DNA of 64,000 nucleotides from Candidatus Heimdallarchaeota archaeon (GTDB lineage: Archaea; Asgardarchaeota; Heimdallarchaeia; Hodarchaeales; Hodarchaeaceae): positions 180,369 to 244,368 of the forward strand of contig RDOB01000004.1 of assembly GCA_011364965.1 (NCBI GenBank), in the 5' to 3' direction. Shown here piece by piece: positions 20,974-27,391 of the stretch. Numbering within the stretch: the first letter of the stretch is position 1; each line of letters opens with the position of its first letter. The translations under genes and the position numbers were made by a program. The notes beneath the pieces were generated by a model, which was given only the letters and a program-made list of their open reading frames with translations, was not told the DNA's origin and did no database searches.

Positions 20974-23900
20974 TTAATATAACAGATCTGTAAATTCTCT
21001 AGGCAAGGATACTGGACTCTTTTTAATTTCTTTGGCTTCAAGGAGAATATTTCTTGCCAATTCTTCTCCAAATCCAGGTATTTTTTGTAAGTCACTTTCT
21101 TTTAGAGACACAAGATTAGAAATATCACGAATGCCATACTTAAGTAAAATACGCGCTCTTTTTCTTCCAATACCTCTTATATGAGTTAAACTGATCGCAT
21201 CGGATTTAATTCCATATTCAACTCTCTCACTTAAGACCGAGGCTGTTTTGGAATACAATTTAAATTTATTATTTGTCCTTGATTGAAGTTCGGAAATCTC
21301 TGACATAGCAGAAATAAGCCAAGTTGCTGTTTCTACTATTCGTCGAATATCACCTGAACCAATTTTATATCTAGTAACAATTTTTTCTAACGGAAGTTCT
21401 TTGATCCAATCCCAGAGGAATAGAACGGTCCGGAAATCACGTAATCGAAACTCATATTCTATATCTAAATTATTAGGAACATCCCGAATCAGTTTTTTCG
21501 ACAGTTTTTGGAATCGTTTCTCCGTATTTGTCCAATCACTCTTTCTAAAGTTAATTGAAACCATATCTGGAGTTCCAGCAATCAAATCTAATAATCCAAC
21601 AGGATAGATTTTGGGTTTCGAAAGGGAGACCCCCTTTTCTAGTCCCTCTAAAATTGCTGCTGCTGTCTCTGGATCTAAATACAGCTGACTTACCCGTTTA
21701 CCATAGCTTGTTGCAATTAATCTTTCATTTGCATCTAGTGGGTGGATCATACCCCAACCAATAAATAGATCGAGAACCTCTCGTATTTTGTTTTCTAAGA
21801 AAATTGCTTCGAATTGGTACCCATAAAATGTCTTATCAAAGAATTCAAGTAATTCATATACTGTAGAGACTACCTCGGAAGAAATCAAACCAAGGATGCA
21901 TCGTCTCAACGCAGGTTTTGCAGCTAGCTTGGAATACACAGCTTCAGGTTCATTATTAATATAACGCTCCATTAGCCAGCTAACAGCGTTTTGTTGTTTC
22001 GCTAAAAGAATAGATTCTCCTTGTTTGTCAAATTGTGGTCTTCCTGCTCTTCCCACCATCTGTTTGTACTCTAAAGTCTTTATCGGATGGGATCCCTCTT
22101 CCACAGAGTACCGATAAACACTAGGAATGACTACGCGTTTTGCGGGGAGGTTAACTCCTGCAGAATTATGAACTATGATGCCATTAGCAACGAACATATG
22201 GTCATTAGCAGGATCATCAGGAAGAACTAAATCATAAACAGTCGTTAATTGGTTCAGTGGTTTTATAAATCTTATATTATCCCAAAAGATATCCCCATCA
22301 AAATCACTATCTCTCCATCCCTTTTTCACATTGTAATATAATTTTTTCCTACATATGGGACACTCTATTAATGAAAAAACATCATCATATGTCTTATTAC
22401 CATTTTTTATGAGCTCTTCATAAATCCATAGACCAATGGAGTTTAAACTCCAAAACCATTCATTCTTGCTAATCTTCCCTATTTTTCTTTTTTTGATCAA
22501 CTCATAATGATGATTCAGTCTTCTCTCATCTTTCTTCGGTTCAAACTGGAGGAGCTCTTTAATTTTTCTTGAACCTAACTCACCTCTCTCTCCGAGAAGT
22601 GTAATAACTGCTAATTTTTTTTGACCCCAATCTTTTTGTGATTCCGTACGGCCAGTAAACAAATCCTTATAGAGTTTAAACTGGCAATTTGAACATGAAA
22701 GATAGTAAATATTAGATTTAATTTGAGTAACTAAGCTTGTTAACCCTGTTTGTTTTCTTTCTAAATTAAACCCAATCGATTCATAAAAACGTAAAATGGA
22801 TTTTTTCTGAGAGATTAGTAATTCATAATAGCTTTTAGTTTTATATATCTTATGATTAAACTCAATCACAGATTTCTTTCGTTTACGTAGTCTACATACA
22901 ATTCCAAAAACTAAAAGTAACTTTTGAGTTTGCTTAACTAATCTTTTAGATGTATTTGAAAATCCTATTACTCTATCCTGATTGATATAACCATCAGAAT
23001 CGAATAACCCTTTTAAGAGACATGAAATATTCTTGCTTTCCATCTCCAGTAATTCTTTAGAGATAAATTTGCGATCCCCCTTTTCGACCCCGCACCGAAC
23101 TAATAATTCCCTAAACCACTTATTTTTACCTAGAATTAACTCTGAGATCCCATATACATTTTTCCTTTTTCTGGTTGCAATATTTAATATTCTGCATATT
23201 TTTTCACATTGTACTAAGATCTCCTCATCATTATTTACAATAGAGGGAGAACCTTTGTAAGTGAGACTTGAATCAATCTTGGTTTCTCCTCCTGAATACC
23301 CATCACCTAGCATAAGGCCAATAAAATATGAAAGATCACCGTTAATTTTCAGATTCTTAATAGGTAGCTCATTTTCTCTAATAAAATCCTTTAAAAAGCA
23401 TTGTTTTTCTCGTCTATTTTTTATTATCCCAATAGTAGCAATTTTGTCCTGTTTGTTTATTGTATAAGCAGGTAAAACGAGTTTCTCTTGCCCTCTTTTT
23501 ATCAATATTCTATGGTTTGAAGTTACCGTAATTTTGTAACCAGATACTGTAGAAAATTCAATTAAATGATTTGTATTGCCATTGTTAATGATTTCTTGAA
23601 GTTTAAGAGGATTTAACTTATTTCCTGTCAACACATAAACTGTTTGATTCAAAGAAAGGTCTTCAACGGAAGTTTCAGACAAACCATGCCATATTTTCGT
23701 GTTTTTTGCAACACAAAGCGTAGGGGTAGCACATAGAACTTTTATTGCCCCTTTTTTAAATGCAAGCTCTACCAATTCCCTTTGTTCAGAATTTAAACCC
23801 GCGTGATGGAAAGTAACACCGTTCTTGATCGTTTCTGATAATTTTCTAGTGAGGGGATCTGTTAGATTAGTGGAAATCGATTTTGAAAGTTCATTTAGAT

Positions 23901-24762: not shown

Positions 24763-26856
24763 TCATGGACGTTTAACGTGGCCAGTTGTGGGTTCAAATA
24801 ATACTCCTCGCCGGGTCATTTCATCAATAGCCTTCACGACTTGAGCTTTATCAAGTCCCTCTTCGACTGCTTTATCAACAATATCCTTGATTGCAACAGG
24901 TTCATCATCAGCTTGTTCCAGAATTCTATCAATTACCGCGTCTATCTGGTCTAATTTTCGTCTGGACCGTGCACTTATTCCAGAGGAAACCATATCGATA
25001 TCTAATTTTCCAGTTTCCGTATCTTTAGCCAATTTCTCCAATGTTGCATTCATCAAGTTGACAGCACCAGATGCATCTTCGAATGTTACCTCATCACTCA
25101 AACGCATTTTTGCACGTGCCTCAGATAGACGAACTAATGACTCAAGCTGGCGGGGGGTTATTGCGATTGGATCAGGCCCTTTCTCATCAACCTTCCCACT
25201 AACCTGCCGCAATTCTTTGTAGTATTCTAGTAAACGATCCCTAGCTTCGTCTGATAGGCGAGGATGAACCTCGCGTCGAGCGTAAGCTATGTATTTGCGT
25301 AATAATTCCTGTTCAATTGGAGGTTCTACTGGCAATGTTTGAGATTGATGGATATTCAGGATATGTGAAGCCTTCTCGTGGTCTTCTTGAGGGTGAGGTT
25401 TATCTTCAAGAACAAATAATAAATCAAACCTTGAAAGTAATGTTGGTGGAAGATTAAGGTTATCTGCAGGATCCTTATAAGGGTTCCACCTTCCCCGTCT
25501 TGGATTTGCTGCAGCAAGGATTGAAGTTCGGGCATTCAATGTTGCTACGATACCAGCTTTAGCTATTGAAATCGTGTGTTGTTCCATCGCTTCATGGATC
25601 GCTACTCGGTCATCTGCCCGCATTTTATCAAATTCATCGACCATGGCAATACCCTGATCTGCTAACACAAGAGCACCTGCTTCTAGAGTTATCTCTCCAG
25701 TATCTTGATCGCGAATGACAGCTGCGGTTAATCCAGCAGCTGTAGAGCCTTTACCTGTCGTGTAGATCGCCCGTGGTGCCAATCTCTGCACAAATTTCAA
25801 GATCTGACTTTTTCCCACCCCAGGATCTCCGATCAACAGGATATTAGATTCCCCCCGCAGTTTCATTCCATCTGGTGTCTCTTTTGCTGTTCCTCCAAAG
25901 AGTAAGGTAGCAATTGCTTCTTTCACTAAATCGTGGCCGTAAATTGAGGGAGCTAATGACTCGCGGATCTTCTGGATGATCAGGGGGGATTTTGATAAAT
26001 CGATGATCTTCTGTTCATCTTCTTCGGAAATTTCAATATCTATATATTCTGCTTTTTCTTTATCAATAGAATTACCTTGGAAAAATTTATTATAGGTTGC
26101 TAATGTCCCTCTTTTTAATAACCGGGTTGCTCTAGCTTTTAAGGTTCCGACAATTTCAATTCTGTCTCCCGGTCGAGCTCGATCAACAAGATCATCTAAA
26201 ATATGAATCATGATACTCTGGGGTAATTGGCCTGGTGGCAGTTCTTCTGGTTTTTCCTGTATCGTGATTTTTTGCCAATCAATAAATGTGCATTTCTCCA
26301 ACTGAACGAGTAGTGATCCTTTTCTCTGACACTGCTCATTTCTACATTGATATGGGGGTGAATATATTCCCTCTGGAAAGTCCACCATTTGGTTCCCCTC
26401 TCCACACACCGCACACTTGAATACTCCCCTAATCATTAAGGGTTTAGCTTCAGTAACACCTATAACTATGCCTTCAAAGCATGCGAGAAGCCCTAGATGT
26501 TCGGTTTTTAACGCTCGTAGAAGTACTTTGTCAGTTAAATCATGAATTCGTATATGAAATAGGTTAACCTTTTCTAAATATGTAGGACTTATCTGGGAGA
26601 TCATTGAACGAAGTACTTCTTCTCCGATAGTTATGGATTCTTCAGGATTTAAGCGAATTTCCTCAGCTAAAGCAGGATCATGTCTTAAGATGTCATTATA
26701 AGAGATATGAAGACTTCTTGATCCCTGCTGTTCCATTGACCTGATTTTATCCATATATATTAATTGTCCGTCTTCATCCTCACATTCTTCTATAAATGAT
26801 TGAAATCGCCCCAATATATCCATGGTTAATCCTTTCTTATCTTTTAATATATACAT
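24763..26856 (-). CDS. mcm: MCM replicative helicase
   Basis: LLIGDPGVGKSQILKFV, MVDEFDKM, ARTSILAAANPRRGRW arginine-finger region LLSRFDLLFVL. Confidence 0.97.
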   Translation of the reverse strand: MYILKDKKGLTMDILGRFQSFIEECEDEDGQLIYMDKIRSMEQQGSRSLHISYNDILRHDPALAEEIRLNPEESITIGEEVLRSMISQISPTYLEKVNLFHIRIHDLTDKVLLRALKTEHLGLLACFEGIVIGVTEAKPLMIRGVFKCAVCGEGNQMVDFPEGIYSPPYQCRNEQCQRKGSLLVQLEKCTFIDWQKITIQEKPEELPPGQLPQSIMIHILDDLVDRARPGDRIEIVGTLKARATRLLKRGTLATYNKFFQGNSIDKEKAEYIDIEISEEDEQKIIDLSKSPLIIQKIRESLAPSIYGHDLVKEAIATLLFGGTAKETPDGMKLRGESNILLIGDPGVGKSQILKFVQRLAPRAIYTTGKGSTAAGLTAAVIRDQDTGEITLEAGALVLADQGIAMVDEFDKMRADDRVAIHEAMEQHTISIAKAGIVATLNARTSILAAANPRRGRWNPYKDPADNLNLPPTLLSRFDLLFVLEDKPHPQEDHEKASHILNIHQSQTLPVEPPIEQELLRKYIAYARREVHPRLSDEARDRLLEYYKELRQVSGKVDEKGPDPIAITPRQLESLVRLSEARAKMRLSDEVTFEDASGAVNLMNATLEKLAKDTETGKLDIDMVSSGISARSRRKLDQIDAVIDRILEQADDEPVAIKDIVDKAVEEGLDKAQVVKAIDEMTRRGVLFEPTTGHVKRP

Positions 26857-27391
26857 TCTTCCAACATTGAACCCAATTCGCTATTTTTTGAAAAAGAATC
26901 CTTTCAGACGCAGTTAGATCGGTTCGCTTCTTACTCAAGAGATTCTTATTATCTGCCATCTTAACCAATTTCGAGAGTCTTTCTTTGGTTAGCTGATAAA
27001 ATTTTGCTCTTTGACGTTTTAACTCTAGTTCGCTATAACTAGATTCGATTTGTAATTCTGAAAGTAAGTATTCTTTCGCTAAAAGGTGCAAATATGGATG
27101 GATTTGTTGCAAATCCCCGGATCGAATCTCATTCCGAACTGCATTTGTCAGACTTTGTAAAGAAAGAGGATACTCTTCTGTAAAATCTTCGATTATATCT
27201 TTTTCAGCTAGATAAATGGCGATGAAATGTGGTATGCTAATTCTGCTACCACGAGGAGTTAAGGGGATTTTTATCCCTTCAAACGAGAATCCAGAGAATT
27301 CTTGAATGAATTTAACTGAGATTGGCTCATGTGACATCTGAAATGCTAATCTTGTCATCTCCTCATCAAGCTCTGTTTCGTAACCATCCAT
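26837..27391 (-). CDS. gins23: GINS complex subunit, Gins23-like
   Basis: N-terminal B-domain-like GIKIPLTPRGSRISIPHFIAIYLAEKDII, then helical A-domain; overlaps mcm by 20 nt, an association known in other archaea. Confidence 0.75.
   Translation of the reverse strand: MDGYETELDEEMTRLAFQMSHEPISVKFIQEFSGFSFEGIKIPLTPRGSRISIPHFIAIYLAEKDIIEDFTEEYPLSLQSLTNAVRNEIRSGDLQQIHPYLHLLAKEYLLSELQIESSYSELELKRQRAKFYQLTKERLSKLVKMADNKNLLSKKRTDLTASERILFQKIANWVQCWKNVYIKR

Follow-up and report, generated by a model that had tools for sequence, protein, structure and literature searches.

We consider it likely that the gene for the DNA-repair helicase Hel308 in the window (the whole stretch of 64,000 nucleotides analysed here, from an Asgard archaeon) carries a mobile class 1 intein at helicase motif V, in which the LAGLIDADG endonuclease is accompanied by an accessory winged helix predicted to lie between the two CxxC knuckles of a single zinc ribbon. 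The module probably helps the endonuclease to find its target, as judged from its predicted fold and from the precedent of another archaeal intein.

The Hel308 precursor and the core of its intein

The intein forms residues 344-860 of the 1256-aa Hel308 ORF, and the coordinates of the insertion are exact (Table 1). An earlier note on this DNA had described a 517-codon in-frame insertion that splits motif V and bears Cys1, a TxxH, two LAGLIDADG-type motifs, HN and Ser+1; reading of the ORF returned precisely those limits, and all of the residues and motifs were located in the translation. Pfam matches the intein to Intein_splicing (E 2e-14) and, over residues 233-315, to LAGLIDADG_3 (E 2e-17). 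A search of the same genome with the Pfam splicing profile found no other intein, the Hel308 intein being its sole match. Directly upstream of the gene, also on the minus strand, lie an MCM-like helicase gene (24763-26856) and a GINS-subunit-like gene (26837-27391); as named by eye from the translations, these and the Hel308 gene make up a replication gene cluster.

Table 1. Features of the Hel308 precursor and its intein. Positions are those of the window; residues are those of the intein.
Feature	Residues	Position	Strand	Basis
Hel308 helicase precursor ORF (extein + intein), 1256 aa		20974..24744	minus	PRK02362 and NF040935 helicase_Hel308 matches
Intein, 517 aa, in helicase motif V (CATPTL / SAGVNLPA)		22165..23715	minus	Motifs, Pfam and NCBIfam-type profile matches
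N-terminal splicing (HINT) part, Cys1	1-100	23416..23715	minus	Pfam Intein_splicing, TIGR01445; kept with the C-terminal part in the G040 mini-intein
Block B TxxH	65-68	23512..23523	minus	T and H invariant in all members spanning it
LAGLIDADG homing endonuclease domain	101-317	22765..23415	minus	LAGLIDADG_3; Foldseek to TliVMA, PI-PfuI, I-DmoI
LAGLIDADG motif 1, LSYFIGLMLGDG, presumed catalytic Asp138	128-139	23299..23334	minus	Asp138 in 19/20 aligned
LAGLIDADG motif 2, LLKGLFDSDG, presumed catalytic Asp241	233-242	22990..23019	minus	Asp in 20/20 aligned
Accessory domain, zinc-ribbon-framed winged helix (predicted)	318-474	22294..22764	minus	Conserved in 21 inteins; model m37bee06cbd9e, pLDDT 82
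First predicted zinc knuckle, CSNC	341-344	22684..22695	minus	Sequence; conservation
Predicted wHTH	358-437	22405..22644	minus	Predicted secondary structure; Foldseek to MarR/ArsR/HxlR regulators
Second predicted zinc knuckle, CPIC	452-455	22351..22362	minus	Sequence; conservation
C-terminal splicing part (DIFWD lead-in, block F, HN)	475-517	22165..22293	minus	TIGR01443; alignment with 6rpq
Ser+1 of C-extein		22162..22164	minus	Intein-less alleles there usually have Ala

With Cys1, block B TxxH, a penultimate His and terminal Asn (H516-N517), Ser+1 and a HINT domain, the intein has the full set of class 1 features. The earlier note had held that splicing-dead mutations in relatives would count against its reading of the insert; C1, TxxH, HN and Ser+1 are intact in every family member that covers those positions. 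The intein is apparently splicing-competent, and the two HINT halves, their catalytic residues being complete, would excise it after translation. Two motifs with acidic residues, together with a matching predicted fold, mark the middle part as a LAGLIDADG homing endonuclease, the sole exception among the presumed catalytic aspartates being a Gly at position 138 in one relative (D138G in L036). Once freed, the endonuclease would cut the motif V codons of hel308 alleles that lack the intein, and the intein would be copied in when the cut allele is repaired.

A predicted winged helix framed by two CxxC pairs

The extra domain comprises ~157 aa (~318-474), the interval between the end of LAGLIDADG_3 at residue 315 and the start, near residue 475, of the C-terminal splicing part. 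The earlier note had put it at about 200 aa with a CSNC and a CPIC pair; both pairs stand, and the length has to be reduced. The pairs lie 107 aa apart, flank a helix-rich segment, and occur in 21/21 inteins, that is, in all 20 that were aligned and in a divergent Aenigmatarchaeota member found afterwards. Retention of all four cysteines in 20/20 aligned sequences, at 37-54% identity to the window intein, and again in the later divergent member, indicates that the pairs are not there by chance. Of 36 other intein loci from Asgard and DPANN archaea, some of them copies of one intein, none has two CxxC pairs in the corresponding region; two additional rows of that comparison belong to the window itself. 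Family-wide conservation of both knuckles is what a zinc ribbon calls for, and the pairs probably represent one zinc ribbon interrupted by the winged helix; Pfam zinc-ribbon matches to the insert fell below threshold.

The earlier suggestion that the helix-rich segment resembles a winged helix agrees with both structure prediction and Foldseek. AlphaFold models a wHTH within the insert at pLDDT 82-87, with low confidence in the region of the recognition helix (about residues 391-410, pLDDT 58-69); the predicted elements are helices 358-377, 382-389 and 401-406, a wing of strands 407-412 and 419-424, and a final helix 426-437. When the insert alone was submitted, Foldseek returned mostly wHTH regulators of the MarR/ArsR/HxlR type, with probabilities mostly of 0.9-1.0 and weak E-values (best 0.015). 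The conserved positions RLNHHY and TEWFWSLN fall within this wHTH. The insert was also searched against profile databases, as the earlier note had proposed: no family in Pfam, NCBIfam or PHROG claims it, and neither these nor the PDB sequences gave a convincing match. That note had further allowed that the insert might turn out to be a standard part of a known intein family with no separate fold; it does belong to the regular make-up of an intein family, and it is at the same time a distinct, conserved domain with a predicted wHTH.

Among 13 relatives measured, mean identity to the window intein was 52% for the insert, 52% for the endonuclease and 39% for the N-terminal splicing part. In three close pairs, with dS partly near saturation, the insert gave omega values of 0.08, 0.15 and 0.34 and the endonuclease 0.13-0.23. 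In these pairs, purifying selection acts on the insert at a level in the range of that on the endonuclease.

Distribution and probable mobility of the intein family

Comparison with other archaeal Hel308 inteins, another of the checks proposed earlier, brought to light 20 more whose insertion point (ATPTL / C...HN / S) is identical; L041 among them is missing its N-terminal end because the contig stops there. The carriers are Asgard (Borrarchaeota, Hermodarchaeota) and DPANN (Woesearchaeota, Nanoarchaeota, Aenigmatarchaeota) archaea, so that one intein family common to both groups is now recorded. The full family occurs in 7/231 Asgard genomes, in 10/377 of the phylum of the DPANN carrier G231 and in 2/158 of the phylum of G237. 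In these same three sets the insert was not found in any non-Hel308 intein; the weak matches to it in Asgard archaea covered either brief stretches close to block F or small stand-alone proteins, including one wHTH protein. Profiles A2 and A1 found no relatives in viral contigs, and plasmids likewise held none; phages gave three distant partial matches, all outside the insert, and none to the insert alone.

In the DPANN carriers L029, L030, L035, L036, L038, L039 and L041 and genomes G231-G236 and G238, Hel308 itself is divided between two genes. A separate frame of 221-267 aa at another place in the genome encodes the RecA1 half, and the gene for the C-terminal half, which begins about 115-157 aa ahead of the intein, contains the intein. 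A split intein was considered as the cause of these short ORFs and rejected, since the break lies that far ahead of the intein and the N-terminal half is a gene of its own. Hel308 is unsplit in the Aenigmatarchaeota member (G700).

Intein presence and absence varies within three genera (g1, g19 and g48). Nine genus-mates examined at motif V have no intein there, and their +1 residue is Ala or Ser. Within one genus, the empty site of G070 reads AAGINMPA and those of the intein-bearing G071 and G072 read SAGINMPA; within another, the empty G178 and G181 have AAG and the intein-bearing G179 and G180 have SAG. Between Asgard and DPANN members, mean identity is 50% for the intein and 35% for the extein, while between the Hermodarchaeota pairs L004/L005 and L006/L007 the order is reversed (intein 53-54%, extein 67-69%). 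The intein and extein trees both place the seven Asgard rows together, with no gross phylum-level incongruence, so that it is branch lengths, identities and patchiness that carry the case for transfer. Faster change of the extein, instead of transfer, may be the source of the divergence mismatch. Taken together, the empty sites in three genera, the Ala-to-Ser difference at +1 and the divergence mismatch support mobility of the intein.

Other inteins were noted in these surroundings. Two genus-mates, G045 (L141) and G051 (L142), have a distinct LAGLIDADG intein, at motif VI of Hel308 (EYKQM / C...HN / CGRA), and an empty motif V. At 4-5 kb from the Borrarchaeum Hel308 intein, a gene that is an MCM helicase by its extein (L022, G180:C8) has an intein at a TAAVLRD site, lacking the CxxC pairs.

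Another genus, of the same class as the window genome, has inteins at the same motif V site without the insert. G040 contains a mini-intein of 154 aa (L163) and G042 an intein of 334 aa with a decayed endonuclease (L170), the splicing parts of both matching the family profile; a third, in G041 (L178), is cut by a contig end. Since G040 and G042 lack both the insert and an intact endonuclease, the insert seems unnecessary for splicing and seems to be kept or lost along with the endonuclease. This single site provides a natural series for the study of accessory-domain function, from full through decayed and mini to empty alleles.

Role and origin of the accessory domain, and known systems

In the intein, the accessory domain follows the endonuclease core and precedes the C-terminal splicing segment. 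There the wHTH would make additional contacts with DNA on the flank of the cleavage site, and would itself be joined rigidly to the endonuclease and HINT parts by the zinc ribbon. Contact with the flank of the homing site is suggested by the predicted fold and by the precedent of TliVMA, as given in the available part of PMC8966425. The earlier proposal of a zinc-stabilised DNA-recognition module draws support from the predicted wHTH, the four invariant cysteines and the absence of the insert from endonuclease-deficient relatives, with binding of zinc and of DNA both presumed. How such a module would affect targeting is not predictable, because the accessory HTH domain at the same position in TliVMA made cleavage more promiscuous, not more specific, according to the same part of that paper.

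The insert could instead serve mainly the protein fold, as a brace stabilised by zinc that holds the HINT part away from the endonuclease and helps both to stay folded without itself touching DNA. Its location at their junction would suit this role, and accessory domains at such junctions are structurally diverse, with functions called unclear in the available part of PMC8966425. We think it unlikely, however, because the predicted fold matches DNA-binding regulators, the conserved RLNHHY and TEWFWSLN lie inside the wHTH, and the splicing domains persist on their own in the mini-intein. Still more improbable is regulation in place of recognition, in which the zinc site would let zinc or redox state control whether splicing or homing takes place. 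The four invariant cysteines speak for that account, and DnaB splicing in mycobacteria is reported to be reversibly inhibited by zinc (available part of PMC7360933), but the CxxC-CxxC set resembles a zinc ribbon of the structural kind, and relatives at this site that lack the set still have their splicing residues intact. We favour a recognition module.

The origin of the domain is a separate matter from its function. Descent from a transcription factor of the TFE-alpha type, which likewise combines a wHTH with a zinc ribbon, is suggestive only, and we regard it as improbable. The A4 profile weakly matched one TFE-like protein (E 9e-4) in 1/354 genomes, and hhalign of A4 against 23 TFE-like sequences gave a single-comparison P of 5e-5 with a probability of only 39%. 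Against this, both knuckles of TFE follow the wHTH, whereas here they frame it, and Foldseek prefers MarR/ArsR/HxlR folds; TFE-alpha (PF02002) was not among the Pfam matches listed for the window protein. A wider proposal, that the zinc-framed wHTH is a new DNA-recognition fold taken from an archaeal transcription factor by one intein lineage moving among Asgard and DPANN archaea, where it sets the target range of the endonuclease, is speculative and rather doubtful. The zinc-framed module bears directly on the idea, put forward in the available part of PMC8966425, that inteins acquire DNA-binding accessory domains from transcription factors and so change or widen their targets.

An archaeal Hel308 intein of similar size is known from Methanocaldococcus jannaschii (MJ1124; InBase). 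A search of openly licensed papers for a study of Hel308 inteins, MJ1124 or 'Mja Hel' found nothing.

The best Foldseek match of the whole intein model is TliVMA (7qss/7qsu), which combines HINT and LAGLIDADG parts with an HTH accessory domain between the endonuclease and C-terminal HINT, the position and general fold predicted for the Hel308 insert. TliVMA differs in host protein and site, its sequence match covers only profile positions 18-297, outside the insert, and no zinc motif is described for it in the available part of PMC8966425. PI-TkoII/PI-PkoII (2cw7) is likewise an archaeal intein endonuclease with extra domains, one of them HTH-like (same part of PMC8966425), but its host is a DNA polymerase and its best-scoring sequence match is confined to endonuclease positions 122-273. 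No sequence match was found between the Hel308 insert and the accessory domains of TliVMA or PI-TkoII. PI-SceI, the VMA1 intein, has an accessory region with a demonstrated role in DNA recognition, again by the available part of that paper; this region is, however, inserted in the HINT domain, and the best Foldseek match of the Hel308 model is to other inteins.

Zinc-containing modules such as a zinc-framed wHTH have hardly been described in inteins. Yeast HO and WHO, intein-derived LAGLIDADG endonucleases with CxxC zinc-finger domains, have been called the sole intein-zinc finger fusions known in any organism, and HO requires zinc (PMC7282813). Their zinc finger is C-terminal, with 3-5 CxxC, and they have neither exteins nor splicing, whereas the predicted zinc motif of the Hel308 intein is internal, frames a wHTH and is accompanied by exteins. 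On the predicted structure, the Hel308 intein shares parts with both the HTH-accessory and the zinc-finger systems and differs from each of them in sequence and in layout; beside HO and WHO (PMC7282813), it would stand as a class of intein that contains zinc and is apparently able to splice.
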